Below, piece by piece: positions 1 through 14,245 of a stretch of 64,000 nt of DNA. The notes beneath the pieces are model-generated. The model saw nothing but the letters and a program-made list of their open reading frames with translations. It searched no databases and was not told the origin of the DNA. The number at the start of each line of letters is the position of its first letter. Position 1 is the first letter of the stretch. This DNA comes from Leeuwenhoekiella sp. Lineage in GTDB: Bacteria > Bacteroidota > Bacteroidia > Flavobacteriales > Flavobacteriaceae. The position numbers and the translations under genes are program-made. The stretch spans positions 62,001 to 126,000 of the forward strand of contig PAPI01000019.1 in NCBI GenBank assembly GCA_002708845.1. Reading direction: 5' to 3'.

Positions 1-218
1 CCCCAACCATTTTCACCTGTGCCGATGTTATAGTTCCAGATTTCAGCATTAGGCGCACCATCAACATCAAAGTTATCTTCGAGAACCAGGTCGGTGAAGG
101 TGACCACGGTTTGCTCTTCACTGGTAGAGCAGGACGCAAGAACCAGCAGTGTACAAAGCAGCGGAAGCTTTGCTGCTAAAACTCTGAGTCCGCGTTTTAA
201 TCGTTTCTTATTTTTCAT
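1..218 (-). CDS. GH16 family glycoside hydrolase lipoprotein, N-terminal fragment (cut by window edge)
   Basis: This open frame starts with ATG at 218 and runs off the left edge, so only about 72 residues are visible. It opens with a basic stretch, a hydrophobic signal segment and a lipobox ending LVLASC, followed by an acidic Ser/Thr-rich linker, as in surface lipoproteins. The visible end reads DNFDVDGAPNAEIWNYNIG and then GENGWG, which matches the start of the GH16 domain in the enzyme at 5876-7543 (EFDTDGAPSTANWTYDLG, then AGWG). It is therefore most likely a third GH16 beta-glucanase of this locus. The catalytic ExDxxE motif lies outside the window, so activity cannot be judged. It follows the lipoprotein gene at 232-1623 by 13 bases and should share its transcript. 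Confidence 0.65.
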   Translation of the reverse strand, partial: MKNKKRLKRGLRVLAAKLPLLCTLLVLASCSTSEEQTVVTFTDLVLEDNFDVDGAPNAEIWNYNIGTGENGW

Positions 219-231
219 ATTCAAAATTTTA

Positions 232-1623
232 TTATCTGTAGAAGTATATATTGTCCACAAGCAGTTCGCTTAGGCCTTCGCTGCTTTGAAAGAGGATGAG
301 CCCCAGATTGCTTCGGTTAGAAAGTGCTGTAAAGTCAGTAAAAGGAATGTCTACTGAAATCCACTGTCCGGTCTGTAAACGGTCTGCAGGGAGTTTTATA
401 CGGGATACCGTGTCGTCCCCTCCGCCGGTTACGGCATCACTACCGTAATCCTGTAGTTCAATATCGATAAAGCTATTGTCATTAAGGGTAATACTTTCGG
501 GGATATACAGATCAACATGCAAGCCCGTCATTGCTGAAGCATTCACCCGACCAAATTGGATTCCTACGAAATTCAGATCGGTATAACTGATGATGCGGTT
601 ACCGTTGATGTTTAAATCATCTCCTCCCAGAGTGGTCTGAAAGGGTTCAAAAAATCCGTTATAGAAATCGACATTCACATTGGTGTACGCATCGCTGTAT
701 ACCGAAATCACATCGGCAGCCGGACGCGTAGGTACCGGTGCCAGTTCAAAAGCTCCGCCTACATTTAAGGTAAGCGAACCTGCAGCACGTACACCACCTA
801 ACAGCGCCGTAATGACCGCAGTGCCTTCATTGAGTGTAGTCACGACACCCTGCTCATTTACTAAGGCAACACCGGGGTTTGAAGTTTCAAACGTAAAATA
901 GCCGGGGGCTGCATTTACGGTTTGGTTTATACCATTAGCCAGATTAAAGGTTTGGGTTAGACCGGTTATAGGAATCGTAATGTCTGTAAAGGTTGATTGC
1001 TCAACGTCTTCACCATTAAGAATTGCCGGTCTGGGTTGAGCTACAGTTCCTAATTTTTCGAATTGAATTTCATCAACCCAAAAGGTATAGCCATCACCAT
1101 CTTCGGGGCCTTCAGAATACCAGAATAATCCGCTTTCTGCAACCAGTTTGGAAGGGTCAGGAATGGGGATGGTGTATTTTACCCAATTGGTACTAATGCG
1201 CAGGTTGGTTTTGGTTACCAAAAATTTATTTTCGCCAAAATTGTTACCAAACCCAATCTCATTTATAGTCGCTGCCTTGGTGGCTTTCGCCCAAAAGGTG
1301 AGCGCATCATAACCGGAAAGGTCACGCGGACTATCCGTAGGAAAAACAGCACCTGCATAGGCTCCTGCGGGATCTCCAAAATTGGGAACATCTATACGCA
1401 TTGAGGCTTCGCCGTCGTAGCTTACGTCAGCATCTACCGTAAAGGCATCGAGTTTTGATCCTTCAAACGGGAAGTAATTCAATCCGGCGGTGAAGCCATC
1501 CAGAAAAACATCGCCGTTACTGGCATAAGTTGCAAATTCAACATCGTCTGACAAGGGACGTTCACAGGCGGTAAAACCTATTAAAATACCTGCGCATATG
1601 AGTTTATATATATTCGTTTTCAT
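232..1623 (-). CDS. Surface glycan-binding lipoprotein with Ig-like and C-terminal CBM-like domains
   Basis: This is a predicted lipoprotein of about 463 residues with signal MKTNIYKLICAGILIGFTAC (lipobox FTAC). Residues of about 25-190 form a beta-sandwich carbohydrate-binding-like domain (YDGEASMRIDV, LTFWAKATKAAT, FWVDEIQFE). About 200-290 resembles a bacterial Ig-like Big_2 domain (NPGVALVNEQGVVTTLNEGTA). The last 160 residues form a domain that also occurs twice in the lipoprotein at 7558-9705 (YSDAYTNVNV, LNFVGIQFG, LVDNIYFY). No catalytic motif is visible, so the likely job is to bind the target glucan at the cell surface. The start at ATGATGAAAACG (1626 or 1623) is preferred over the upstream ATG at 1641 because it gives a clean signal peptide and avoids overlap with the preceding gene. 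Confidence 0.7.
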   Translation of the reverse strand: MKTNIYKLICAGILIGFTACERPLSDDVEFATYASNGDVFLDGFTAGLNYFPFEGSKLDAFTVDADVSYDGEASMRIDVPNFGDPAGAYAGAVFPTDSPRDLSGYDALTFWAKATKAATINEIGFGNNFGENKFLVTKTNLRISTNWVKYTIPIPDPSKLVAESGLFWYSEGPEDGDGYTFWVDEIQFEKLGTVAQPRPAILNGEDVEQSTFTDITIPITGLTQTFNLANGINQTVNAAPGYFTFETSNPGVALVNEQGVVTTLNEGTAVITALLGGVRAAGSLTLNVGGAFELAPVPTRPAADVISVYSDAYTNVNVDFYNGFFEPFQTTLGGDDLNINGNRIISYTDLNFVGIQFGRVNASAMTGLHVDLYIPESITLNDNSFIDIELQDYGSDAVTGGGDDTVSRIKLPADRLQTGQWISVDIPFTDFTALSNRSNLGLILFQSSEGLSELLVDNIYFYR

Positions 1624-1630
1624 CATCTCT

Positions 1631-4600
1631 CTATTTACCAATGTTGATATGTATGTATGTTCTGATCTCCCATTCGTTTCCGTCAGGGAATCCTACCGGA
1701 CTGATCGTGGGTTGTGTAGCAAATTCTTCTCCCTGTAGTGGCGCATAACGGTTAGAGAATTCATTAAGTGAGCGCCAGGTTCCGCGAACACCGATGCGGG
1801 TATTGGGCAGAATAAACCAACTGGGTTTACCCAGTGTTGTTGACACATCAAGCATCAACTGCACCGGAAAGGTCAGGTTGAAATCACGGTGATAATCATA
1901 AGGTCCCCAGTCGTTAACTTTAAAAGAATGAATAAACTTAAACTTGTTGTAAATCACCCGAATATCCCCACCAAAGCGTTCAATAAGCCGCGGGTCGCTA
2001 CCGCGCGCCTGAGCGTTACCTAAATACATATTGGCAATCAAGCCCAGATTAGGTGCTGCTTTTGAAACGATACGGCTGTTGAACTCCCATAAATCTTTTG
2101 CAGGTACCGAATTGGGGAACGCAAATGAAGTACGATTGCCGAGAAAACCAATAGCCGCATCCATTGTGGTGGGCAGATGGCGGTAAACAAAACCGGCATT
2201 AAAGGCTAATTTTGCGTCTTCCATCTCATCGTTATCCCAGGCGTACATCCAGGTTCCCGGCGTAGGGTCAAAGGTGAGCAAAAGTTCTCCTGCAACCGTT
2301 TCCCGGTTTTCACGTACCGAAAATGGATCGTCCTGAATGTTACGCAAACGAGCCGGAGCAGGCGCATCATTAGGAATCGCTTCTACCAAAGGTTTTTGCC
2401 AAAGGAAGTTGGGCGCTATGGTAAAGTTTCCGGTTAAAAAGGTAAAACCGGTAAGCACGTTTGTAATGTTTCCACCTCCCACATCTTTCAATCTCCAGCC
2501 GGTAAAGGTCTGGGTTTGATCAAAACCGCTGCGTGCTACAAGCCCCATGGCCGATCCCTGTGCGTACCAGTTGAAAGGTCCGCCGGAAAAGGTGATTTTT
2601 GCCTTAGCACCCCAATTGTCCATGGAGTTGACCTTGTCGGTATACACAATATAATTATCGGGATTATCGCCTCGCACTACCTGAAATTCGCGTCCGTTAA
2701 GCGGCTGTCCTGCCCAGATGGCTCCGGCTTCAAAACCGAATTTACCCAGCGTGGTTTTTCCCTGAAGGGTTACCCGTCTGGTTTTAGGCTGCGGGATCGC
2801 GATCGAACTTACTGTGGTGCCGTAATCGTCAATATCTTCGTGATAGATTGCAGCGACGTCAAAGTTTTTGAACTGCTTATAATATTTTAGAAAAACAGCC
2901 GGGTTAGCACCCCACCATAATTGCGGACCAAAAGCTACTTTAAAATCTTTAAGCGCTTTTTTACCATCTACTTCAAAACCTAAAATCTCCCCGTTATAAA
3001 TATCGAGATTGGGACCGTAATTCGCTTCGGGATACAAACCAAAAAAGTCGCCTTCATAACCCCAGTGGTAGTGCCCGGTACGGTAAAAACCACGTAAGTC
3101 AAAATATTCGGCATTCCACTCATACTCGGCGCTGTAGATCTGAACCCGGTTAGGATCTGTATCAACAATTACCCCATCTGGAGTATTAATACGACGCGGC
3201 CGTGCCCGGTTTTCGTAGAAAATTTCATCTATGGGATTTTCAGCTACATTGCCCACAATGTTGAAATTCACCTCTGCACGCATATTGGCTGTAGGGTTTC
3301 CTTCCACTCCCACATAATAGGATTGCATATGGTCAAAGCCCAGCTCATCAGGGTACATCATCGCATCAGGGTCTGCATTGCGAGGGGTAGTAATGAGACT
3401 TCCGCCGGTGTTGAAAGTGGTAAATTCGGCTCTCAAGTTACTGAGTCTTACTTTGCTGTTGAGTTCTACACCTAAAGCTGCCTTATCGCCACGGGCGCGG
3501 AGTACCGCGTCCATAATTTCAATATCTTTAAATGCTGTAGAAATACTTGCCGCAGTCATTCCGCCGGAGTAAGGATTCAGACTATGGGCCTCTTTCAATA
3601 CATAATAAGCAGCCCGCGGATACAAATCATACAGACCGCGTTCGTTCGTAGGGCCTTTGGCACAGATACCAAACCACTCTTCGTTCATATTGTTTTCGCC
3701 ATCGCGGAAATCAAAGGCATAGCCCCCGTTAGACCAAGATGCGTTATTATCGTGTACCGAAAGATTTTCGGTCTGACCGTATTTCCACCAGCCGTCGCTA
3801 AACTGAAAGGTAAATCCACCGATAGAGTTACCGGCTTCGCCCATACCCGAAGCATTGGCATAAATTTCTTCCCAGTTGCTTTTAAGGTATTTGGCCTGCG
3901 CTTCCTGATCTTCCTGATTTTCTATTGCATTAAAGGCATCAGAACCAAATTCGGTAAACATAATTGGCATGTTGAGTTCGTCCCGTACGCGGGTAAATGC
4001 ATCGCCAAAAGACATCCCGCGATACACGTTTGTACCAAAGATGTCCACGTCTTTACATTCCTCTTTGATGATTTCCAGAAAGAGTAAATCGCCATTACAC
4101 ATCGCCACCGGATGACCGGTATCAATCGCTTTCATAGCTACGGCAGCCTCGTTAAACAATTTGTACATCGCCTCTGCACGTGTGGTAGACTTGCGGTCTT
4201 CAAAGGGAATATCTTCAGTCTCAGCTCCGTCCCAGAACAGGCCGTAGTTGTTTTCGTTACCCAGGAGAAACATCAAAAGACCGCGGGTGTTTTTGTATTT
4301 CTGGGTCATTTCGGTTACTTCTTTAAGCAGCAACTCCCGGGTTAAGGGATTGGAATATTCGGTATTGGGCACCCACTCCCCATTCAGGGTAAGTCCGTAA
4401 CGTCCAAAAGAGTGATTGAGCATCGTATAAATACCGTAGTTGTCGTAGATATAGGTGATCCATTTGGGTTGAATCCCGGTATACTGTCTGATAACATTAA
4501 CCCCCATATTTTTGAGTAGCCCCATCTCTGAATCGAGAGCCGCAATAATGATATCATCAGGCTGATTCCACAAACTGTAGGAGAAATTAGTGCCTATGGG

Positions 4601-4759
4601 AAAGTAATCCCAGTTCATCCCATTTATCATAAATGGTTGGTCTTCTACCAGCAGTTGCATACCCTCTGCATTTTTATCAACCACGACTCGCTGAGTCTGA
4701 CTGATCAATGCGGAACTGTACAAAACAATAGCCAGTGCAAGTAGTTTTTTGTAAATCAT
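1631..4759 (-). CDS. Secreted clan GH-A (GH2-like TIM barrel) glycosidase with beta-rich, outer-membrane-barrel-like C-terminal half
   Basis: The 1042-residue product starts with a signal peptide (MIYKKLLALAIVLYSSALIS). Residues of about 25-380 look like a retaining (beta/alpha)8 glycosidase of the GH2 C-terminal type: LLMFLLGNENNYG offers the acid/base Glu169 in the NE motif after strand 4, and MPIMFTEFGSDAF offers nucleophile Glu270. The family number is uncertain; GH2-like, GH5-like and GH158-like are all possible. From about residue 400 to the end the sequence changes to long alternating, aromatic-rich beta strands (AEYEWNAEYFDLRGFYRTGH, WGAKAKITFSGGPFNWYAQG, NKFKFIHSFKVNDWG), which look like an outer-membrane beta barrel or porin. 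The last residues (YIHINIGK) lack the usual final aromatic. Its place between GH16 genes suggests it acts on beta-glucan. Confidence 0.65.
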   Translation of the reverse strand: MIYKKLLALAIVLYSSALISQTQRVVVDKNAEGMQLLVEDQPFMINGMNWDYFPIGTNFSYSLWNQPDDIIIAALDSEMGLLKNMGVNVIRQYTGIQPKWITYIYDNYGIYTMLNHSFGRYGLTLNGEWVPNTEYSNPLTRELLLKEVTEMTQKYKNTRGLLMFLLGNENNYGLFWDGAETEDIPFEDRKSTTRAEAMYKLFNEAAVAMKAIDTGHPVAMCNGDLLFLEIIKEECKDVDIFGTNVYRGMSFGDAFTRVRDELNMPIMFTEFGSDAFNAIENQEDQEAQAKYLKSNWEEIYANASGMGEAGNSIGGFTFQFSDGWWKYGQTENLSVHDNNASWSNGGYAFDFRDGENNMNEEWFGICAKGPTNERGLYDLYPRAAYYVLKEAHSLNPYSGGMTAASISTAFKDIEIMDAVLRARGDKAALGVELNSKVRLSNLRAEFTTFNTGGSLITTPRNADPDAMMYPDELGFDHMQSYYVGVEGNPTANMRAEVNFNIVGNVAENPIDEIFYENRARPRRINTPDGVIVDTDPNRVQIYSAEYEWNAEYFDLRGFYRTGHYHWGYEGDFFGLYPEANYGPNLDIYNGEILGFEVDGKKALKDFKVAFGPQLWWGANPAVFLKYYKQFKNFDVAAIYHEDIDDYGTTVSSIAIPQPKTRRVTLQGKTTLGKFGFEAGAIWAGQPLNGREFQVVRGDNPDNYIVYTDKVNSMDNWGAKAKITFSGGPFNWYAQGSAMGLVARSGFDQTQTFTGWRLKDVGGGNITNVLTGFTFLTGNFTIAPNFLWQKPLVEAIPNDAPAPARLRNIQDDPFSVRENRETVAGELLLTFDPTPGTWMYAWDNDEMEDAKLAFNAGFVYRHLPTTMDAAIGFLGNRTSFAFPNSVPAKDLWEFNSRIVSKAAPNLGLIANMYLGNAQARGSDPRLIERFGGDIRVIYNKFKFIHSFKVNDWGPYDYHRDFNLTFPVQLMLDVSTTLGKPSWFILPNTRIGVRGTWRSLNEFSNRYAPLQGEEFATQPTISPVGFPDGNEWEIRTYIHINIGK

Positions 4760-4991: not shown

Positions 4992-5762
4992 CTATTCCAG
5001 CTCATAAACCCGTACATAGTCAATGCTGAATTCCTGTGGAAAAATGGTATCGTCAACATCGGGTCCACCAAAGTTGCCTCCAATGGCCAGATTCAGAATA
5101 AAATAGAAGGGCTGGTCAAAAGGCCAGACAGCTTCGGTTTTATCCTCGGGATTAAAAGTGTACACCAATTGATCATCTACAAAAAAGGCAATTTTTTCAG
5201 GCGACCATTCTGCTGCATACACGTGGTAATCGTCTTCAATACCTGGGAATTGAGTCTTTTCGGTATTGATGGTATTGCCGTGACTGTCAAGCGTATGTAA
5301 AGAAGTGAATATCTCCCCAGGTTCGCGACCTACATACTCCAGAATATCAATCTCGCCACAAGCCGGCCAACCCACTTCGCTGATGTTTGCACCCAGCATC
5401 CAGAATGCGGGCCACAAGCCGTGACCAACAGGGAGCTTGGCCCGGGTTTCCATACGGCCGTATTGAAACTCCTGTTTGTCTTTTGTAGTGATTCGGGTAG
5501 ACGTATACCTATCACCATCTTTTTTTGCCGTGATGATTAACTTACCATCTTCGAGCCGGTGGTTGTCTTTTGTATATACCTGCCGCTCGTTATTACCCCA
5601 GCCACATAAATCAGGACAACCGTCTCCCAATTCGTAATTCCAGGATGACTCGTCGAGGCTTTGCCCGTCAAATTCTTCAGCCCAAATGAGTTTTTGGTTT
5701 TGGGCATTGCCACCAAACGTTGTAAACAACGCAAGCAACAGGGTTAACTTTAGTGTTTTCAT
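4992..5762 (-). CDS. Secreted GH16 endo-beta-1,3-glucanase (laminarinase-like)
   Basis: This 256-residue enzyme is a compact single-domain GH16 protein with a Sec signal peptide ending near FGGNAQ. It should cut internal beta-1,3 (or mixed beta-1,3/1,4) bonds of glucan by a retaining mechanism. The signature GEIDILEYVGRE places nucleophile Glu137, Asp139 and acid/base Glu142, in the longer laminarinase form of the motif with the extra residue. Other family landmarks are AEEFDG near the start, GWGNNERQVYT, LWPAFWMLGANI and the final strand SIDYVRVYELE. It has no lipobox, so it may be periplasmic or released. It is a paralog of the GH16 domain in the next upstream gene. A hairpin with a U-run lies only about 20 bases upstream of its start, which may lower its share of the operon transcript. 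Confidence 0.92.
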   Translation of the reverse strand: MKTLKLTLLLALFTTFGGNAQNQKLIWAEEFDGQSLDESSWNYELGDGCPDLCGWGNNERQVYTKDNHRLEDGKLIITAKKDGDRYTSTRITTKDKQEFQYGRMETRAKLPVGHGLWPAFWMLGANISEVGWPACGEIDILEYVGREPGEIFTSLHTLDSHGNTINTEKTQFPGIEDDYHVYAAEWSPEKIAFFVDDQLVYTFNPEDKTEAVWPFDQPFYFILNLAIGGNFGGPDVDDTIFPQEFSIDYVRVYELE

Positions 5763-5875: not shown

Positions 5876-7543
5876 TCAGTCACGCTGATAAACTCTTACA
5901 TAGTCTACTTCCATACTTGACTGCTCAAATTCTGTAGCCACATCTCCTCCAAAGTTTCCGCCCATAGCCACATTGAGAATTACAAAGAAGTCCTTGTCAA
6001 AAGGTTTGCTTGAGTCGTTCTCAAATATGTGGTAAAGCTCATCATCAACGTAGAAACGAATCTGAGTTTCGGTCCATTCGGTTGCATATATGTGAAACTC
6101 GGTTGAAGCGGTAGGCACTGTGGTGCTTTCGCTCACTCCATTAGCTCCAGAATTTTCAGGAAAATGCAGGGTTGAGAAAACGGTGTTTTGCTCACGACCT
6201 ACGTGCTCCATAATATCAATCTCTCCAGCTGCAGGCCAGGCATTGGTCTGATAATCGGCCCCGAGCATCCAGATTGCAGGCCATGTACCTACGCCGGTAG
6301 GTAATTTAGCTCTTACTTCTACTCTACCAAAGGTGAATTCCTGTAAACCTTCAGACTTGATGCGTGCCGAGGTAAACGGCTGACCGTTAAACTCTTCGCG
6401 TTTTGCAGTTATTTTAAGCATTCCGTCTTCAACAATTACATTTTCGGGACGGTCTGTATAATACTGTTCTTCATTATTTCCCCAGCCGGCCTGACCAACA
6501 CCCAGATCGTAGGTCCAGTTTGCGGTACTTGGAGCTCCATCGGTATCAAATTCATCTGACCATAACAAATTAGGGAACGAATCGGTCTCTGCTACCGGAC
6601 CTGTGCTTTGTACCGGTTTGGTAGAGGTGAAAATCTGGTACCAGGCTAATGCCGGATCATTACCCTGAATAGCCCGGGTAACCATTCGGTTTTCGGTAAT
6701 TGAAAGAATCTCGTACTGGGTTGTCCCGATGTAGTAGCCCATAAAACCACCATCATTGAAAGTCATTACTGTACCGCGTTTACGCTCTGGTGCCACTACA
6801 GACTCTGAAGGACCCAAAGTCACTGTTTGCGTGCCACCGGAAGTGGTATCAAATTCATAACACTGATCATCTGGAGATGTCCCACCGGCTACACTGGCGT
6901 AACTTCTGTTAAAGAAAGTAGCACCGTTGTTGTCGTACAGGTAATTGAGATTTTCCCCATTTGTAGTGCTGAAAATAAATTCATCGTCATAAGCACAACT
7001 TGCCGCATCAAAATTGAGGGCGAAAGGCTCAGAAAACGAAAAGAAAAACCAAAAGTAATTCTGATCTTCATTATCACTGTTAGGTCCCACACCCAAATGA
7101 TTGGGAACATCTGCCGCCCAATACCATGTTTTGGTTGCCGGATTCCCGGTTGCCGGGTCGTAACCTGTTAACAATTCGACCGCTTCAAAATCAGAAAAAT
7201 CGCTTTCTACCTCAACTTCAACCAGTTGCGAACTGCTTACGCCGGCCTGCCCGTAGGCAATAACAGTTACACTATAGGTATTTAAACCGGTTTTAGTAAA
7301 TCTCTTGGTGTAGACTCCGCTGGGTGCTACATCTGAAGACCCATCAGGAAACACAAAGCGATACGTAATCGCATTGTCTGCCATAGCGGTAAAGGTTACA
7401 TTACCCGAACCGTCTGTGCTTATGTCTGTACTTACGGTAAGGTTTTGCGGCACAACTACTGACTCTAAAGTCGCGTCGTCGTCCTGGCAACTAAACGCCA
7501 GAAGCAAACTCATTACCGTGAATAATTTTAAAATAGCTTTCAT
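5876..7543 (-). CDS. PKD-containing GH16 beta-glucanase lipoprotein
   Basis: The 555-residue product is a predicted surface lipoprotein (lipobox LLAFSC at residues 14-19, followed by QDDD). Residues of about 30-112 form a PKD-like domain (YRFVFPDGSS, TYSVTVIAYG). Residues of about 120-310 hold a module of its own, beginning KTWYWAADVPNHLGVGP and containing CAYDDEFIF; it looks like a glycan-binding module and I cannot name its family. Residues 320-555 form the GH16 catalytic domain with Glu441, Asp443 and Glu446 in GEIDIMEHVG, plus GWGNNEEQYYT and VDYVRVYQRD. It should cut beta-1,3-glucan chains at the outer surface to make fragments for the SusCD pair. It is 14 bases downstream of the glycan-binding lipoprotein gene and clearly part of the same operon. 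Confidence 0.9.
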   Translation of the reverse strand: MKAILKLFTVMSLLLAFSCQDDDATLESVVVPQNLTVSTDISTDGSGNVTFTAMADNAITYRFVFPDGSSDVAPSGVYTKRFTKTGLNTYSVTVIAYGQAGVSSSQLVEVEVESDFSDFEAVELLTGYDPATGNPATKTWYWAADVPNHLGVGPNSDNEDQNYFWFFFSFSEPFALNFDAASCAYDDEFIFSTTNGENLNYLYDNNGATFFNRSYASVAGGTSPDDQCYEFDTTSGGTQTVTLGPSESVVAPERKRGTVMTFNDGGFMGYYIGTTQYEILSITENRMVTRAIQGNDPALAWYQIFTSTKPVQSTGPVAETDSFPNLLWSDEFDTDGAPSTANWTYDLGVGQAGWGNNEEQYYTDRPENVIVEDGMLKITAKREEFNGQPFTSARIKSEGLQEFTFGRVEVRAKLPTGVGTWPAIWMLGADYQTNAWPAAGEIDIMEHVGREQNTVFSTLHFPENSGANGVSESTTVPTASTEFHIYATEWTETQIRFYVDDELYHIFENDSSKPFDKDFFVILNVAMGGNFGGDVATEFEQSSMEVDYVRVYQRD

Positions 7544-7557
7544 AGTTTATTTTTTTC

Positions 7558-9705
7558 CTAGTTGTGGAAATACACATTATCAACAAACACCGTAGCCTCA
7601 CCTGCTGGGCCTGCAGAGTAGATTAATTGTGCTATATGCTCACGTGCAGCCAGACCTGTAAAATCTGTAAGGGGAATATTTAAAGTAACCCAGCTGTTCC
7701 GTACAAAATCTCCGTTATCAAAATTAAGTGTAATCTCGTGCTCACTATCATCACCACCATCGTAGGTACCGTTAGGACCAAAATCAACCAGTTTGATACG
7801 TATTTGAGTCGCATCACCAGTCCAGATATCGGTACTGAAATGCGTCATAGAAGTAGCATTAATTGGTGTGGCTGGTTCTGCCCCTACAAAGTTTAAGGCT
7901 GAATATTTTTTGACCGCATTACCTGCAACAGTTATGTCTTCCAGTGTCGCAGAAGACCAATCAGTTCTCCAGGTTGCCATTGTTACATCTGAATATGCGT
8001 CGCTAAAAAGGGAAAGCACATTTGCCTCAGCAAAAGCAGGTGTTGGCGCTGCATTTTGCGGACTGTCTGGAGCTGAAGCATTAGCATCATAGAAGATAAC
8101 ATTATCAATATATATGGTTGCCTCACCAGCCGGGGCTGCTGAGTAGATAAGCTGCGCTATATTTCCGCGATTCTGAAGACCTGTAAAATCAGACAACGGA
8201 ATATCTAAGGTTACCCACTCAGACTGCGACGGATTTTCAATCACAATCTCGTGTTCAGAATCATCACCTCCCTGATAGGTTCCGTTTGGACCAAAGTCAA
8301 CTAATTTAATTCTAAAAATGGTTGCACCATTAGTCCATATATCTGTTCTGAAATGCGTCATCTGAGAAGCATCGATCTGAGCTACGGGTTCTGCTCCAAC
8401 AAAATTAAGAGCTGAATAAATCTTAACGTCATTTCCATTAATGGCCGATTCTTCAAGAGCGGTATCAGACCAATCTGTTCTCCAGGTTGCCATATCAATA
8501 TTGGTATATGCATTGCTGAATAGCGAAATCACACCACTTTCCGGCTTATCAGGAGTCGGAGCTGCACCCTGTGGAGTAGTCAAACCTCCCGTTTGCTCAA
8601 TATCATCAATATAGAAGGTTCCTGCCAAAGTACCGGGACCATCTATAAAAATAGTCATCGCAGTATATTGTCCGGTAGGGACAAAAGCCTCTCCTACACC
8701 CTGATTACCATCTATGTAACTTTTAATGGCATCTGTAGCAAAATTAAAGCTTAGTTCTTCCCAACCCGTACCATTATGTGACTGGCTAACCTCAGTTTGA
8801 CGCTCTCCACTCACACCTCCTTCAAATTTCAAGAGTACAGGAGTCGGAGTGTCTGACCAAAACTTCATCGTAATGGTTTTATCTGCACCGCTAAAGTCTA
8901 CCGGCGTTCCCAGATTAAACGTACCCCCTTCATATTGTGCTCCGCCATTCTTAATAGCGCCTACATTAGAATCTGAAGTATTAGCACCAGACTGATCGGG
9001 ATTTGCAACCACTTCAAAAGTTACTCCGCCAAAGGTTACGAATTCGTAATTCACATCGGGATTGTCAAAGGTGAGGGGCAACACCATAGGATCAACCGCA
9101 CCTGCTACCAAAATCGATTTTGTCAGCTCGATTGTATTTACTGAAGCTGCTCTAGCAACCACTCTGATGTCGTAAGTTCCCGGTTCTGCGTACTCATAAA
9201 CAGCAGATTCACCAGCCATAATCGTCATCGGCTCTTCATCGTCGCCTAAACCAAAATACACGTCAAATTGTGCTGCATTGGTAGCTTCAGGAGTTACGGT
9301 AAGTTTTAAACCACTTACTGAAGTGGTGAACTCCAGGTTCTCTGGAGCTGTAAAAGAAATAATGAGATTTTGATTATACTCACTGGTTAATCCCGTAGCA
9401 CCTGTTGCCACAATCTTTACAAGGTATTCACCTTCAGTATAGGTAAAACTTGTTGATTCTCCTGCGTTAATTGTTACCGGAGTATCTCCTTCAATACCAG
9501 ATGTTATGGTAAATGTTGAAGCTCCCTCCCCTACAGGAGTGATGGTTACTAAACCTGAATCATCCTGAGTTATCTCAAAATTGGCGTTTAAATTTTGAGG
9601 AGCAGATATATCATCAAAAGCGTAGTTGGTGATGATATCATCCTCACAAGCAGTAAACGCGGTCACTACCGTAAGAACTAACACTAAAAGTTTAAAAATT
9701 TTCAT
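7558..9705 (-). CDS. Large surface glycan-binding lipoprotein (SusE/F-position) with duplicated C-terminal domain
   Basis: The 715-residue product has a lipobox (VVTAFTAC, Cys20) followed by EDD. Residues of about 35-117 and 118-200 are two PKD/Ig-like beta domains. Residues of about 205-370 look like a CBM-type beta sandwich (KTITMKFWSDTPTPVLLKFE, GTFYIDDIEQ). Two closely similar domains of about 150 residues follow (391-540 and 562-715), each with ATWRTDWS, SALNFVGAEP, VDFGPNGTY, GGDDSEHEI, IAQLIYSA and IDNV or VDNV. No active-site motif is visible. Its position directly after susD is the usual place for surface glycan-binding proteins, which hold the polysaccharide next to the SusCD importer. 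The same C-terminal domain occurs once in the lipoprotein at 232-1623. Confidence 0.78.
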   Translation of the reverse strand: MKIFKLLVLVLTVVTAFTACEDDIITNYAFDDISAPQNLNANFEITQDDSGLVTITPVGEGASTFTITSGIEGDTPVTINAGESTSFTYTEGEYLVKIVATGATGLTSEYNQNLIISFTAPENLEFTTSVSGLKLTVTPEATNAAQFDVYFGLGDDEEPMTIMAGESAVYEYAEPGTYDIRVVARAASVNTIELTKSILVAGAVDPMVLPLTFDNPDVNYEFVTFGGVTFEVVANPDQSGANTSDSNVGAIKNGGAQYEGGTFNLGTPVDFSGADKTITMKFWSDTPTPVLLKFEGGVSGERQTEVSQSHNGTGWEELSFNFATDAIKSYIDGNQGVGEAFVPTGQYTAMTIFIDGPGTLAGTFYIDDIEQTGGLTTPQGAAPTPDKPESGVISLFSNAYTNIDMATWRTDWSDTALEESAINGNDVKIYSALNFVGAEPVAQIDASQMTHFRTDIWTNGATIFRIKLVDFGPNGTYQGGDDSEHEIVIENPSQSEWVTLDIPLSDFTGLQNRGNIAQLIYSAAPAGEATIYIDNVIFYDANASAPDSPQNAAPTPAFAEANVLSLFSDAYSDVTMATWRTDWSSATLEDITVAGNAVKKYSALNFVGAEPATPINATSMTHFSTDIWTGDATQIRIKLVDFGPNGTYDGGDDSEHEITLNFDNGDFVRNSWVTLNIPLTDFTGLAAREHIAQLIYSAGPAGEATVFVDNVYFHN
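7561..8535 (-). repeat. Intragenic duplication of a ~150-residue domain (copies at 7561-8022 and 8086-8535)
   Basis: The two C-terminal domains of the lipoprotein share long identical stretches such as SALNFVGAEP, VDFGPNGTY and GGDDSEHEI, and are joined by a Pro/Ala linker (NAAPTPAF in one, GAAPTPDK in the other). This is a tandem domain duplication within one gene. Confidence 0.8.
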
Positions 9706-9723: not shown

Positions 9724-11199
9724 TTAGTATCCTTGATTTTGTTCCCATCGGTTTCCTGCTAACTCAATCTCAATTGAAGGAATGGGGAATAATTCGTTTT
9801 TATCTGGTGTAAATCCAGGTATTTCATCTGCTGCGCGACCGGTACGAACAAGGTCGAAGAAACGGTGTCCCTCACCTACCAACTCCAGTCTGCGCTCGGC
9901 ATAGATAAACTCAGTGAGTGCTGCGCTGGTCGCCACGATGTCGTGATCAAGATCACCAAAAGCTCTGCGTCTTACGCGGTTTAAATATTCCTGTGCTAAA
10001 ACATCGTTAGGATTGGCCTTACGATTATGCGCTTCTGCAGCCATAAGCAATACATCCGCAAAACGGATAGACCGGTAATTATTAGGGTTAGTAAGGTTTG
10101 CATCTCCCAGATTGGCATCACCTTTACGTGGCAAGTATTTTCTGTTGAAATAACCCGTATGCTCATAGCCTTCATTATAGGTTGCTCCTGTACGTGCAGC
10201 AAAAGCTTCAATATCTAAAATCGCGTTATCCTGACGGGTGTCACCGGGTTCGAAGGCATTATAGGCCTCGGCAACCGGTACATTAAAACTGAACCCACTG
10301 TCAAATTCTGGTCCGGAATAGTTTCGGATACCATTAAAACCTACGGCTACATTACCTTCACTACACTGCAAACAACCAAAACCGGCTCCTTCTTTATCAG
10401 TATACTGTACTTCAAATACCGACTCTACGCTGTTTTCACCTTCCTGAAGAAATAAAATGGAATAATCATCTAGCAAATCATAAGGCCCTGCGATTACCTG
10501 ATCAAGCGCATTTGCAGCTTCGGTAAATTTATCCTGATAGAGATAAGCTTTACCTAAAAGCGCACGTGCTGCTCCGCTGGTAATTCGACCTTCCTGAGCC
10601 TGAGTGGCAGGAAGATTCTCTGCTGCATAAATCAAGTCCTGCTCAATCTGTGCGTATACCTCTGCTGCCGGAGTGCGATCTACATTAAACTGATCTCCGA
10701 AAAGCAGACGCTGATCAACTGCAAGCGGCACATCACCAAACCATTTTACCAGTTCAAAGTAGTAATAGGCTCTTAAAAATCGGGCCTGGGCTATGATTTC
10801 GTTTTTTCCGTCAAAATCAATTTTATCCTGAAACTCCAGGATGTAATTAGCCCGATTAACTCCGCTAAACATCCAGCCCCAGATATCGCGCAATTGCTGA
10901 TTGACCGGAGTATGGGTCATATTGTCAATTTCCTGTATACCCGGGGTATCGGTAGCGCTTTCGCCACCTGCCAGGGTGTTGTCTGATGCAATCTCCCCTA
11001 CCAGAACATTGAGGTAGGTAGCCTGCAATAAATCATAAGCTCCTACTAATGCCAGTTCATAATCTTCCGGAGTATTGAAGTAGTCCTCCGAATTTTCATT
11101 TATAGGCGCTACTTCAATAAAATCCTGTCCGCAGGACACCAGGGTCATTACTGCCGTAACGGCAAGAACTATTCCTGTATATAATTTTGTGTTTTTCAT
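9724..11199 (-). CDS. susD: SusD-like outer-membrane nutrient-binding lipoprotein
   Basis: This is the SusD partner of the SusC transporter: a helical TPR-like surface lipoprotein that lids the SusC barrel and binds oligosaccharide. The start at 11199 (MKNTKLYTGIVLAVTAVMTL followed by VSC) gives a lipobox and 491 residues, a normal SusD length; an earlier in-frame codon at 11280 would overlap susC and add a tail with no signal character. Family landmarks are LRAYYYFELVKWFGDVPL, RALLGKAYLYQDKFTEAA, YLNRVRRRAFGD and the C-terminal AERRLELVGEGHRFFDLVR. It begins 10 bases after the susC stop and is surely co-transcribed with it. Substrate cannot be read from the sequence alone; the GH16 neighbours point to beta-glucan oligosaccharides. 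Confidence 0.95.
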   Translation of the reverse strand: MKNTKLYTGIVLAVTAVMTLVSCGQDFIEVAPINENSEDYFNTPEDYELALVGAYDLLQATYLNVLVGEIASDNTLAGGESATDTPGIQEIDNMTHTPVNQQLRDIWGWMFSGVNRANYILEFQDKIDFDGKNEIIAQARFLRAYYYFELVKWFGDVPLAVDQRLLFGDQFNVDRTPAAEVYAQIEQDLIYAAENLPATQAQEGRITSGAARALLGKAYLYQDKFTEAANALDQVIAGPYDLLDDYSILFLQEGENSVESVFEVQYTDKEGAGFGCLQCSEGNVAVGFNGIRNYSGPEFDSGFSFNVPVAEAYNAFEPGDTRQDNAILDIEAFAARTGATYNEGYEHTGYFNRKYLPRKGDANLGDANLTNPNNYRSIRFADVLLMAAEAHNRKANPNDVLAQEYLNRVRRRAFGDLDHDIVATSAALTEFIYAERRLELVGEGHRFFDLVRTGRAADEIPGFTPDKNELFPIPSIEIELAGNRWEQNQGY

Positions 11200-11209
11200 C
11201 GCTCTTCTT

Positions 11210-14200
11210 TTAAAATTTGAAGTTAAGTCCGGCTGTATAGATACGCGGTACCGGGTAGAATCCCTGATCAATACCGCCACCTATAGGCGCTCCTGAAGTT
11301 GCTGAAGGGTCAAAGCCCTGATATTTGGTTAGCGTAAAGGCGTTTGCCACAGCCACGTAAAAACGCAACTTGCTAATGCCCAACTGCTCGATGGCCTCAT
11401 TGCCTAAACTATATCCCACCTGCACGTTTTGTAATCTCAGATACGAACCATCTTCCACATAAAAATCGGAGAACAGCAAGTTTGAATTGGGACCAATTGT
11501 CACCCGTGGATAGGCGTCTTTAGAACCTGGGCCAATCCATCGGTTAAGCACATAATTGGTTTTATTGGTCAGGTTTTGATTACGGTCATACGCTCGTATA
11601 ATATCATTTCCAATTGATGCATACGCATATGCTGTAAAATCAAAATTCTTATAATTGAATCCAAAATTTAATCCCATCGTTACATCAGGAATTGGGTCTC
11701 CTAAATTTACCCGATCGTCCCCATCGATGACTCCGTCACTATTTTGATCAACGTAACGTAAATCTCCAAGAGTTGCGTTTGCCTGTGTGGCGTGTGCATC
11801 AACTTCTGCCTGGGTCTGAAAAATACCGTTGGTTTGTAAGCCGTAGAAGTAACCGATTGGAAAACCGGCTTCCATACGTGCCGGAGCTTCCTGGCCAAAA
11901 CCAAAAGAACCGCCCGGTATAAATCCGCTTTGATTACCTACCTGAAGCACCTCGTTTTTAAGGGTGGTAAAGTTGTAACCAATATTGAAATCGGCATCAT
12001 CGCTGATGATCTGGTTGTAGTTGATTGAAAATTCAAAACCTTTGTTTTCAACGCTACCGGCATTTACAATAGGCGCAGAAGATCCCGGAGCGGTCACACC
12101 CAATATTCCGGAAACCTGAGGCACCAATAGCAGGTCTTCTGTGCGCTTGTTGAAGTAATCTGCAGTTATTCTTATTGATGAACTGAAGAGCTCAAGATCA
12201 AGACCTATATCGTAGGTTTTTTGACGCTCCCATTTTATTTCAGGATTTGAAAGCCGGCCTGTGGCTTTACCAAAAACCAACTCGTTATCAAAAACATAGG
12301 TTCCCTCTCCATCAAGTGTAGACACAAAAGCAAATCCCGGAATACGGTCATTACCTAATAAGCCGTAACTACCTCTCAACTTGGCAAAATTTATAAGTTC
12401 GCTATTGAAGAAATCTTCATCACTCAACACCCAACCTCCTGATAAGGCATAGAAATATCCGAATTTATTCTCCGGGCCAAAGTTGGAAGAACCGTCTCGT
12501 CTCAGCAAAGCTGAAAGGAGGTATTTCTCTTTAAAGTTATATTGCAAACGAGTAAAATACGAGAGTAAGCGCTGATCGAATTCATTGGGACCCCCAGTTA
12601 TAGTACGTGCATCAATAACCTCTTCTGCACCTTCAAGTGTTGCTTCGGCAAAGGTATTACCCGGTACACCACGACCGGTGAAATTGTAAAACTCCCCACT
12701 GGTTCTAAAAGCCGACATACCCAAAAGAGCCGTTATGTTGTGATCATCTGCAATGGTATTGGTATAGGTCAACAGGTTATCCCAGGTATAATCTCTAAAG
12801 AAACTATCATTTACAAAATACTCATTACGTCCCAGGTTGTTAAACACCTTACCGTCACCATAATTTAAACCGGAAGGGTTGAAAGATCGGTTACGCACTT
12901 CAGAATAGTTGAACTGATAGTTTGACTCGATTTTAAAATTGTCTAAGAATTCATAAGATAATCCTACAGTACCGGTAATTTTATCAACCTGAGTACCATT
13001 AAAAGTATTGGCAATCTGTGCCACCGGGTTGATCACTTCATTACCTAAACCGGTCGCCAGTGTAAAGTCACCGTTAGCGTCATAAACAGGTCTGGTAGGA
13101 TCCATATTTACGGCATTAAACAATACAGAACCTAATGTGTTTTCTAATAAAGTACTTCGATTGGAATTGGTATAAATACCCGAAGCTTTAAATTTTAGAT
13201 TATCGGTTATATCGAGATTGTAGCTTCCGCGCCCAGTAAATCGTTCAAAATTCGCAGCGCTACCACCTACAATACCATCCTGATCTAAATAGCCCAGACC
13301 AATGGAATATGTAGAGTTTTCACCACCTGCATAAACCGTGGCGTTAACATCAGACAACAAGGCTTTCCTAAAAACCTCATCCTGCCAATCGGTTCCCATA
13401 CCCAAATTTCTCAGATTTGGGAAAGGTGGCGCCTGATTACCGGCAGCGAAGGCCTCATTAATAATGGCACCGTACTCGGTTGCATTTAATACAGGAAGCT
13501 TTCGGGTTGTTTCCTGCAGACCCACATACGAATCAACATTTACTCTGACATCTGTATTCTTTCGTCCTGTTTTGGTAGTGATTAATATAACACCATTAGC
13601 AGCACGAACCCCATAAATACCAGCAGTCGCATCTTTCAAAACATTAATGCTTTCTATATCATTTGGGTTGAGCACACTTAAGTCTTCAATTACTGCTCCA
13701 TCAACCAAAATGAGAGGACGGTTATCTCCATTAGTAGAAATACCTCTAATGTTAATAGTTGAAGCACTACCCGGAGAACCCGATGTAGAGCTTACGTTAA
13801 CCCCAGCAACTCTACCTTGTAAGGCTTGTTCAATACGCACCGGGTTTTGCTCTTCAATGGTTTCTGAACCTACCACGGCAACAGCCCCGGTAACCTCTTT
13901 ACGCGTTTGCGTACCGTAACCTATTACCACCACCTCTTTTAAGGCACTGGCATCTTCTACAAGTTGAACGGTGATGGGATTGGCACTCGTAACGGTTATT
14001 TCTTTAGGTTGAAAACCCAAATATGAAAAAACCAGCGTACCGGATTGCGGAACTGAGAGGCTAAATTCACCGTCGAAATTTGTACTGGTACCTCTTGCTG
14101 TTCCTTTAACAATAACATTGACACCGGGAAGTGGCATTCCCGTCATATCTGTTACTGTTCCTGATGCCTGAATTTGATCACCGGTCTGCGCGAGAAGTCC

Positions 14201-14245
14201 CGATGAAAACAAAACAAGAACCATTAAGGATAATATTGATCTCAT
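11210..14245 (-). CDS. susC: SusC-like TonB-dependent outer-membrane transporter
   Basis: The 1011-residue product imports oligosaccharides across the outer membrane using TonB energy. It has a signal peptide (ending SSGLLAQ), an N-terminal carboxypeptidase-regulatory-like beta domain at about 28-105 (GMPLPGVNVIVKGT, FDGEFSLSVPQSG), then the plug at about 110-225 with STINIRGIST, RPLILVDGAVI and LKDATAGIYGVRAANGVILI, and a 22-strand barrel ending in GLNFKF with a terminal aromatic. There is no N-terminal sigma/anti-sigma signalling extension, so control is more likely through the adjacent regulator gene than through an ECF sigma factor. It is the first gene of the sugar-uptake operon; a 249-base gap with candidate control sites separates it from the regulator. 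Confidence 0.95.
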   Translation of the reverse strand: MRSILSLMVLVLFSSGLLAQTGDQIQASGTVTDMTGMPLPGVNVIVKGTARGTSTNFDGEFSLSVPQSGTLVFSYLGFQPKEITVTSANPITVQLVEDASALKEVVVIGYGTQTRKEVTGAVAVVGSETIEEQNPVRIEQALQGRVAGVNVSSTSGSPGSASTINIRGISTNGDNRPLILVDGAVIEDLSVLNPNDIESINVLKDATAGIYGVRAANGVILITTKTGRKNTDVRVNVDSYVGLQETTRKLPVLNATEYGAIINEAFAAGNQAPPFPNLRNLGMGTDWQDEVFRKALLSDVNATVYAGGENSTYSIGLGYLDQDGIVGGSAANFERFTGRGSYNLDITDNLKFKASGIYTNSNRSTLLENTLGSVLFNAVNMDPTRPVYDANGDFTLATGLGNEVINPVAQIANTFNGTQVDKITGTVGLSYEFLDNFKIESNYQFNYSEVRNRSFNPSGLNYGDGKVFNNLGRNEYFVNDSFFRDYTWDNLLTYTNTIADDHNITALLGMSAFRTSGEFYNFTGRGVPGNTFAEATLEGAEEVIDARTITGGPNEFDQRLLSYFTRLQYNFKEKYLLSALLRRDGSSNFGPENKFGYFYALSGGWVLSDEDFFNSELINFAKLRGSYGLLGNDRIPGFAFVSTLDGEGTYVFDNELVFGKATGRLSNPEIKWERQKTYDIGLDLELFSSSIRITADYFNKRTEDLLLVPQVSGILGVTAPGSSAPIVNAGSVENKGFEFSINYNQIISDDADFNIGYNFTTLKNEVLQVGNQSGFIPGGSFGFGQEAPARMEAGFPIGYFYGLQTNGIFQTQAEVDAHATQANATLGDLRYVDQNSDGVIDGDDRVNLGDPIPDVTMGLNFGFNYKNFDFTAYAYASIGNDIIRAYDRNQNLTNKTNYVLNRWIGPGSKDAYPRVTIGPNSNLLFSDFYVEDGSYLRLQNVQVGYSLGNEAIEQLGISKLRFYVAVANAFTLTKYQGFDPSATSGAPIGGGIDQGFYPVPRIYTAGLNFKF

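Follow-up and report, generated by a model that had tools for sequence, protein, structure and literature searches.

A secreted clan GH-A glycosidase joined to an outer-membrane-type beta-barrel in Bacteroidota beta-1,3-glucan operons, a candidate glucan entry module

The window, the whole stretch of 64,000 nucleotides analysed from contig PAPI01000019.1 of Leeuwenhoekiella sp. (GCA_002708845.1), begins with a cluster of minus-strand genes in which a large fusion protein lies among glucanases, lipoproteins and a SusC/SusD pair (Table 1). Past the window edge, the genome continues with a glycan-binding-type lipoprotein and GH3 (blastp labels); GH149 is not among these downstream genes, and no GH149 match was found in the window's own genome. 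In a related locus (L015), a homologue of the propeller-type regulator passed the cut-offs of Y_Y_Y and Reg_prop and fell just short of that of a LuxR-type HTH.

Table 1. Features of the fusion locus, in window coordinates.
Feature	Position	Strand	Evidence
Third GH16 lipoprotein gene, start; runs past window edge	1..269	-	blastp labels
lipoP232, partner lipoprotein, Big-like domain, mature N-terminus CERPLSDDVEF	232..1641	-	ORF, Pfam, neighbourhoods, lipoprotein signal
Fusion protein, 1042 aa	1631..4759	-	ORF, Pfam, AlphaFold2, Foldseek, relatives
Beta-barrel half of fusion, residues 437-1042, ~24 strands	1634..3451	-	AlphaFold2, Foldseek, alternation, loop asymmetry, conservation
TIM-barrel enzyme half of fusion, about residues 22-395	3575..4696	-	Glyco_hydro_2_C, GH158/GH157/GH2 folds, profile alignment
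GH16 beta-glucanase	4992..5762	-	Pfam
GH16 beta-glucanase, PKD-like domain at N-terminus; judged a lipoprotein by eye	5876..7543	-	Pfam, sequence
Surface glycan-binding-type lipoprotein; weak PKD-like and CBM11-like matches	7558..9705	-	Pfam below cut-offs
SusD homologue	9724..11280	-	PF07980, PF14322
SusC-type TonB-dependent transporter	11210..14245	-	Plug, CarbopepD_reg_2; TIGR04056 above cut-off (G000:C19:73213-76170)
Propeller-type regulator	14495..17335	-	ORF, homologue's domains, neighbourhoods

The fusion consists of an N-terminal signal peptide (judged by eye), a TIM-barrel glycosidase and a C-terminal beta-barrel half, which confirms the initial annotation of a glycosidase and a barrel-like half in one secreted protein; the gene is on the minus strand. 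When the two halves were checked separately by profile and fold, the first was identified as a clan GH-A enzyme and the second was left without a Pfam family. The sole Pfam match of the fusion above its cut-off was Glyco_hydro_2_C (residues 75-292, E 1.4e-5), and NCBIfam gave one match only, far below cut-off.

For the enzyme half, AlphaFold2 predicted a TIM fold over residues ~25-380, with 320-379 modelled at low confidence. The GNEN and FTEFG motifs noticed earlier are present, and their glutamates are invariant in 75 aligned sequences: E169 as acid/base and E270 as nucleophile, paired by profile alignment with E137 and E220 of BuGH158. In the model, N168-E169 follows strand 161-166 and E270 lies at the end of strand 266-271, giving the (beta/alpha)8 fold, Asn-Glu after strand 4 and Glu after strand 7 that define clan GH-A. 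Foldseek neighbours were GH158, GH157 (LaGH157, PDB 9fz9/9g5g) and GH2 enzymes. In GH2 enzymes, N-terminal sugar-binding and Ig-like sandwich domains precede the TIM barrel, whereas in the model of the fusion these are absent, the TIM fold starting at ~residue 25 right after the signal peptide, and the C-terminal half is an outer-membrane-type barrel. The closest match by both fold and profile was the endo-beta-1,3-glucanase BuGH158 (PDB 6pal), with both catalytic glutamates aligned, at 12-14% identity in fold alignments and a weak profile E-value of 4.1e-6. BuGH158 has a C-terminal Ig-like domain (PMC7157763); the model of the fusion has none and the profile match is no stronger than stated, so the enzyme was not assigned to GH158.

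The barrel half was modelled in the full protein as a series of long antiparallel strands (437-1040), and barrel-type strands were again obtained when it was folded alone (mean pLDDT 78, pTM 0.74). All 50 PDB matches listed by Foldseek for this half were outer-membrane barrels, with low TM-scores of 0.25-0.35 by query. Strands were taken from the models, and the count of 24 leaves out six short model strands. Over these 24, dyad alternation was 0.69, compared with 0.37 +/- 0.05 in 5000 within-strand shuffles, none of which reached 0.69. In outer-membrane barrels, the loops on the outer side are long and the turns on the periplasmic side short; here, the strand connections alternate between long loops (median 27.5, n=12) and short turns (median 2, n=11), and with 24 strands both barrel ends fall on the short-turn side. 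The protein thus combines a signal peptide, an even number of amphipathic strands and long loops with short turns, as outer-membrane barrels do. Charged residues occupy 39/133 pore-facing and 8/139 lipid-facing positions, and 44% of pore-facing positions are at least 97% identical, compared with 17% of lipid-facing ones. Loops L3 (562-590), L4 (612-620) and L11 (951-963) are nearly invariant, and L7 (738-764) largely so. The description of this half as aromatic-rich does not set it apart from the TIM half (aromatics 14.5% and 14.0%, respectively). The reported lack of a terminal aromatic was upheld, as 0/75 sequences end in F, W or Y; this residue is common in outer-membrane barrels, not universal.

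No Pfam family was found for the barrel half: the best E among 75 members was 0.042, and the window's protein stayed under the cut-off. The sole match of the barrel profile against PDB chains was an antibody chain (E 1.1). The top structural matches were the TonB-dependent transporters BtuB and BtuB3G3, at ~9% identity and low TM-scores. These are plugged barrels of 22 strands, and BtuB3, too, has a surface lipoprotein as partner, according to the title of its structure entry. The fusion had no Pfam match to a plug or CarbopepD_reg domain, which sets it apart from SusC-type TonB-dependent transporters, and visual inspection revealed no TonB box.

Relatives were retained when complete or near-complete (n=80, 66-95% identical), and the fusion is conserved across Bacteroidota in beta-1,3-glucan operons. 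A homologue of the propeller-type regulator was the next labelled gene upstream in 55 of the 80 loci, and a lipoP232 homologue was the first labelled gene downstream in every one. In a further set, lipoP232 accompanied 9/10 fusions and 0/12 barrel-less enzymes, several of these on short contigs; the barrel thus travels with one lipoprotein family. Downstream genes vary between genomes; GH17 and GH30 lipoproteins are frequent there, as are a symporter of the GPH type and a GH149 phosphorylase that lacks a signal peptide.

Lipoprotein signals were scored with a lipobox script, which recognised 81/109 lipoP232, 63/85 GH16, 39/50 GH17, 28/41 GH30, 6/8 SusD and 8/11 barrel-less enzymes (a twelfth, L182, cut by a contig end, was excluded). 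It flagged 4/106 fusions, and these four resemble ordinary signal peptides. Among recognised lipoproteins, the acidic surface-export-type signal (described in PMC5080379) was present in 67/81 lipoP232, 53/63 GH16 and 5/6 SusD, as compared with 1/39 GH17, 6/28 GH30 and 1/8 barrel-less enzymes, the last being L165 by script score only. LipoP232 is likely a surface glycan-binding lid. Since the gene is followed in all 80 loci by a lipoprotein whose signal is of the surface-export type, the protein can hardly be called self-contained, as the degrade-and-import protein of the initial annotation had been.

By profile, no barrel without enzyme was found in 296 Bacteroidota genomes, setting aside fragmentary or broken copies (G204, at contig ends; G119 and G235, with in-frame stops or split frames), and a single-sequence barrel search of 395 genomes gave two weak matches (G014 and G134, E 0.002 and 0.008). 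Enzymes lacking the barrel do exist, and in other lineages a lipid anchor takes the barrel's place. These barrel-less relatives match the barrel profile up to position 43 at most (~residue 426), short of strand 1 at 437. The tree comprised 67 rows, without the distant rows L115-L117, and was midpoint-rooted; L113 forms a long branch of unsure placement.

The fusion had been placed next to SusCD, which is correct for this window and does not hold as a rule: of the 60 loci whose upstream DNA extends for 8.5 kb or more, only 8 have SusC/D upstream, and SusC/D was rejected as a constant companion. In family f21, SusC/SusD or SusD alone precedes the barrel-less enzyme in 3/5 loci, while SusC/D occurs in 0/4 fusion loci within the 12-19.5 kb examined; fusion plus lipoP232 and SusC/SusD plus barrel-less enzyme thus alternate in comparable operons. 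The swap is not universal, since in family f29 the enzyme is barrel-less and 7/7 enzyme genomes, several incomplete, lack a PF07980 SusD; the barrel-less loci G123 and G400 likewise had no SusC/D within the stretch examined. Among 33 fusion hosts, 28 have a PF07980 SusD, and in three (G051, G066 and G255) none of the three SusD families tested was found; each of these three has GH149 on the same contig as the fusion. SusC above cut-off is also absent from G066 and G255, and both contain many lower-scoring SusC-type matches, which presumably belong to TonB-dependent receptors of other kinds. G144 lacks the two main SusD families, yet has a SusD-like_2 protein and SusC; no lipoP232 label accompanies its fusion. 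Given that most hosts have SusD, and given the weaker matches in G066 and G255, the barrel need not be the import route.

Searches of the PMC full-text library turned up no description of the fusion or its barrel. The published 'GH2 beta-glycosidase' of Muricauda laminarin PULs is, we infer, probably an orthologue, its operon being of the same kind, with GH16, GH149, GH17, GH30 and MFS genes (PMC13188888). In the parts of that paper available, the protein is described solely as GH2, and 'barrel' refers in its five uses to TIM or (alpha/alpha)6 barrels.

On balance, we lean slightly towards the fusion being a SusCD-like outer-membrane module for glucan entry that carries its cutting enzyme at the exit of the channel; its transport function, its orientation and its activity are predictions. 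Surface GH16 and glycan-binding lipoproteins would cut and capture laminarin, lipoP232 would sit on the extracellular mouth as lid or receptor, like SusD on SusC, and the glucan would travel through the barrel. Held at the periplasmic opening of the barrel by a minimal linker, the TIM enzyme would hydrolyse or transglycosylate the emerging beta-1,3-glucan and perhaps also cap the pore. As there is no plug domain, entry would be passive, pulled by cutting. In genomes that also encode SusCD, the window's included, the module would work beside it. The enzyme is better placed on the periplasmic side than on the cell surface because of the strand topology and the lipoprotein signals. Of the earlier proposal that barrel-anchored cutting passes glucan inward, the joined enzyme and barrel, the beta-1,3-glucan operons and an import role, the last through genomic evidence, remain supported.

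Other readings were weighed against the entry module. The barrel might instead be an anchor or autotransporter, with a helix passing through it, the enzyme displayed as a surface laminarinase and no sugar transported, which we consider unlikely. Type V autotransporters export a passenger to the outside through a 12-strand barrel of ~300 aa, and the fusion shares their order of N-terminal enzyme, helix and C-terminal barrel, though its enzyme is predicted to lie in the periplasm. The helix of ~20 residues directly before strand 1 in the AlphaFold2 models recalls type V secretion and makes surface display possible, and the lipid anchor that replaces the barrel in other lineages points the same way. 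However, the helix region is mostly common to the barrel-less forms, leaving ~10 residues before strand 1, and ~24 strands over ~605 residues is twice the classical number. The strong conservation of pore-facing residues and the rarity of surface-export-type signals among the barrel-less lipoproteins also argue against display.

It is less probable still, and in our view improbable, that the barrel moves something else, such as edited glucan for export or another ligand, with the TIM half acting as a periplasmic glucanosyltransferase that remodels self-made beta-1,3-glucan. Such an activity would agree with the match of 6/41 enzyme sequences to the glucanosyltransferase family Glyco_hydro_72 (E <= 0.01) and with MlGH17B of a comparable operon, a beta-1,3-glucanosyltransglycosylase (PMC13188888). 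The neighbouring genes nevertheless suggest catabolism (GH16 bearing surface-type signals, GH30, a symporter of the GPH type and GH149), and laminarin induces the laminarin PULs of a Formosa strain (PMC6246565), whose induced proteins may include the fusion. A soluble periplasmic enzyme of stacked beta-sandwich domains with no membrane barrel is very improbable: the missing terminal aromatic, the low barrel TM-scores and the sandwiches that clan GH-A enzymes usually carry would suit it, but stacked sandwiches were rejected on the outer-membrane barrels among the Foldseek matches and the strand alternation, and the asymmetry of long and short connections also speaks against them.

SusC/SusD importers, with utilisome complexes alongside, are the system to which the entry module compares. 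Both have an outer-membrane barrel, a cognate surface-type lipoprotein and a GH16 glycanase in the PUL, and either set replaces the other in the comparable f21 operons; the fusion differs in lacking a plug or CarbopepD match and in carrying its enzyme covalently on the barrel, probably in the periplasm. A bolder proposal, which we hold tentatively and at somewhat under even chances, is an unrecognised class of SusCD-independent glycan importers: an unplugged ~24-strand barrel whose periplasmic mouth is sealed by its own glucanase and which has a surface lipoprotein lid dedicated to it, with polysaccharide drawn in by cutting as it emerges, evolutionarily interchangeable with SusC/SusD and working in SusD-free bacteria.

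Laminarin ranks among the largest marine carbon stores, and SusC/SusD is the entry route through which Bacteroidota PULs are commonly interpreted. The fusion is a widely conserved protein of laminarin operons that seems to have been annotated as a plain GH2 enzyme, and its larger half resembles an outer-membrane barrel. If glucan passes through this barrel, operons are missed by PUL predictions that depend on the presence of SusC/D, hosts deemed incapable of laminarin import may be capable of it, and the physical coupling of uptake to cutting would be testable in a single polypeptide. Algal sugar may then be taken up independently of the usual SusC/SusD pair.

The initial annotation had described a glycosidase TIM barrel joined to an outer-membrane-like barrel in one secreted protein; its extent was borne out as one open reading frame of 1042 residues, both the GNEN and the FTEFG motifs were found in it, and the observation as a whole was confirmed. 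The two catalytic glutamates were invariant in an alignment of 75 sequences (74 of 80 related loci and the window). When the halves were searched separately, the TIM half was recognised, its GH2-type TIM domain being the only Pfam match above cut-off in the fusion (E 1.4e-5), and the barrel half had no significant Pfam match (best E-value 0.042 among 75 members); a barrel-half profile run against solved chains gave a single match, to an antibody (E 1.1). Glyco_hydro_72 was also matched by 6/41 enzyme sequences, so transglycosylation by the enzyme half is possible.

Coordinates of the fusion, its neighbours and the segments of the fusion protein
Feature	Position	Strand	Remark
Fusion	window 1631-4759	-	
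Partner lipoprotein (lipoP232)	window 232-1641	-	just downstream of the fusion
Operon beyond the window	window 1-269, G000:C19:56224-62269		third GH16 lipoprotein; another glycan-binding-type lipoprotein; GH3
GH2-type TIM domain	residues 75-292		Pfam
Catalytic glutamates	E169, E270		
Poorly modelled segment	residues 320-379		AlphaFold2
Helices	residues 403-411, 415-434		AlphaFold2
Long antiparallel strands	residues 437 to 1040		AlphaFold2
Short strands omitted from the statistics	residues 522-526, 529-533, 691-696, 704-709, 870-872, 878-880		six strands

The AlphaFold2 model of the whole fusion (75-row alignment; mean pLDDT 76, pTM 0.55) had a TIM-type first half, followed after two helices by long antiparallel strands. 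Ranked Foldseek matches in the PDB were GH158 (E 8e-13), GH157 and GH2 glucuronidases on the enzyme half and TonB-dependent transporters, MOMP and OprC on the remainder of the protein. Modelled on its own (pLDDT 78, pTM 0.74), the C-terminal half matched outer-membrane barrels in all 50 matches listed, with BtuB3, BtuB and MOMP at the top and low TM-scores of 0.25-0.35 by query length. The structure prediction thus upheld the proposed fold class, and because of these models and the uniformly outer-membrane-barrel matches, assignment of the half to the membrane-barrel class is well supported, strand count, closure and pore size being provisional.

Barrel statistics were calculated on 24 strands chosen from the models. 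The difference in interface hydrophobicity between alternate positions averaged 0.69, against 0.37 ± 0.05 when residues were shuffled within strands (0/5000 as high), and was 0.30 in nine strands of the TIM half. The connections alternated in length, the 12 odd ones having a median of 27.5 residues and the 11 even ones a median of 2, with the exception of two long even turns (20 and 10) and two short odd loops (9 each). Charged residues numbered 39/133 at inward and 8/139 at outward positions, a contrast partly built in because facing was assigned by hydrophobicity. Positions at least 97% identical made up 44% of inward and 17% of outward positions (0/5000 permutations as large), which may partly mirror easy exchange among hydrophobic residues. 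Loops L3, L4 and L11 were nearly invariant and L7 largely so, and these loops contain numerous aromatics. A barrel serving as a mere anchor would not need such conservation of its interior and loops.

A scan of genome contigs confirmed at least 580 relatives from 586 candidate stretches. The best 80 were retained; they are complete or almost complete, with 66-95% identity, and the nearest of the 80 comes from Leeuwenhoekiella nanhaiensis. At E 0.001, 38/296 Bacteroidota genomes had a match: 27 full-length fusions (window counted), 3 clear barrel-less enzymes (G104, G123, G242), 3 fragmentary or broken copies (G204, G119, G235) and 5 distant partial matches (G077, G139, G151, G240, G282). Searching the 296 genomes with the barrel profile turned up no enzyme-free intact barrel. 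The copies on G119:C314 and G235:C53 had in-frame stops or split frames, reflecting broken genes or assembly errors, and one Bacteroidota-type fusion operon (L076) lay on a contig titled Bifidobacterium breve MAG, probably a mislabelled record.

A lipoP232 homologue was the first labelled same-strand gene downstream of the fusion in 80/80 loci, and it is added as a partner lipoprotein to the module first proposed as self-contained. The mature lipoprotein often begins CERxxSDDxE, a start similar to the surface-export signal of Flavobacterium. Upstream of the fusion, 55/80 loci had a propeller-type regulator as the next labelled gene. Labels in the DNA around the 80 loci, from blastp against a small set of reference proteins, comprised GH16 (74), GH149 (52), GH17 (50), GH30 (41), GH3 (8) and SusC (8). 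At locus L015, HMMs upheld the GH149, GH17, GH30, GH16 and MFS_2 transporter labels; GH149 matched the 1,3-beta-D-glucan phosphorylase model with 1817 bits (cut-off 1150), and the transporter fell below the cut-off of the GPH model TIGR00792. No signal peptide was seen by eye in GH149, which had no match in the window's own genome, unlike most related loci. The claimed position next to SusCD holds in the window, where the minus strand carries SusC, SusD, a glycan-binding-type lipoprotein, two GH16, the fusion and lipoP232 one after another, but not as a rule, since SusC or SusD lay upstream in 8/60 loci for which 8.5 kb or more of upstream sequence was available.

In family f21 the enzyme was present in 9/11 genomes, 4 as fusion and 5 barrel-less. 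None of the 4 fusion loci (12-19.5 kb examined each) had SusC/D and all 4 had lipoP232. The barrel-less order was SusC, SusD, GH16, enzyme, GH149 in G104 and G395, and SusD, GH16, enzyme, GH149 from the contig start in G396; the G400 locus lay on a 6-kb contig, and G123 had no SusC/D within the 16 kb examined, its contig carrying the nearest SusD at a distance of about 16 kb. Among 22 re-examined loci, lipoP232 was beside 9/10 fusions and 0/12 barrel-less enzymes, several of these on short contigs. G104 and G123 nest among fusions with strong support in a midpoint-rooted tree, which suggests that the barrel was lost in their lineages. At f21 loci L163, L164 and L165, a barrel-less enzyme occupies the place of fusion and lipoP232, after SusC/SusD (L165 SusD only, contig end) and GH16 and before GH149. 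Family f29 counts against a simple swap rule: 7/27 genomes had a barrel-less enzyme, and PF07980 SusD was found in 0/7, several being incomplete. At f29 loci L179, L180, L181, L183 and L185 the enzyme adjoins genes resembling DNA gyrase subunits by eye; three of these loci have GH149 nearby, and the genomes of all five are without PF07980 SusD.

SusD_RagB (PF07980) was matched in 28/33 fusion genomes. PF14322 was sought in the remaining five and G318, and PF12771 in G051, G066, G144 and G255; G204 has PF14322, G144 a SusD-like_2 (PF12771) protein beside SusC, and G051, G066 and G255 none of the three families. SusC (TIGR04056) was absent above cut-off from G066 and G255 and marginal, with one match, in G051; the many weaker SusC-type matches in these three genomes are presumably other TonB-dependent receptors. 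At their loci (by Pfam in G066 and G255, by likeness in G051) the fusion is accompanied by a lipoP232 homologue, GH16, a ROK-type regulator and an MFS_2-type transporter, with GH149 11-15 kb away on the same contig; no other outer-membrane barrel was found among the ORFs labelled or scanned, which cover part of those present, and porins may be encoded elsewhere in these genomes. The ROK-type regulator stands in the operon at L148 and L149 (L150 by likeness), genomes without a SusD match, and no propeller-type regulator was labelled around these three loci. At L151 (G144), no lipoP232 was labelled downstream of the fusion, and a shorter glycan-binding-like protein lies upstream of it instead.

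The proposal that the enzyme cuts glucan at the membrane and perhaps passes products inward was partly supported, with the amendment that the enzyme likely lies in the periplasm. Given an even strand number and long loops on the outside, both barrel ends would be periplasmic, and the enzyme half precedes strand 1. Two or more acidic residues at positions +2 to +6 are a surface-export signal type of Bacteroidota lipoproteins (PMC5080379). Among script-recognised lipoproteins, such acidic signals were frequent in lipoP232 (67/81), GH16 (53/63) and SusD (5/6), and rare in GH17 (1/39), GH30 (6/28) and the barrel-less enzyme (1/8). SusD neighbours in f21 carry CIDDF or CMDDF directly behind the lipobox, so the signal type exists in that family. 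An autotransporter-like arrangement of the fusion is possible; in barrel-less homologues, however, the match to the barrel profile covers just positions 1-43 or 1-32, to about residue 426, which leaves some 10 residues before strand 1, little for threading a pore. For the enzyme half, strand topology and the lipoprotein signals of relatives point to a periplasmic position.

In the parts of the papers available to us, PMC13188888 reports a comparable Muricauda operon with one gene named GH2 beta-glycosidase, which from gene content would be the fusion orthologue; PMC6246565 reports induction of Formosa laminarin PULs by laminarin, and PMC7157763 the catalytic residues of BuGH158. The fusion is not named in the corresponding parts of PMC6298971, on laminarin PUL variants, or PMC11345257, on Maribacter, and no paper listed by the full-text searches describes it in its title or abstract opening.

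Neighbouring genes and fold kinship to endo-laminarinases point to beta-1,3-glucan as the probable substrate. In the simplest account, the barrel and lipoP232 would fill the role in the fusion operon that SusC and SusD fill elsewhere, with the enzyme acting at the exit of the barrel channel.
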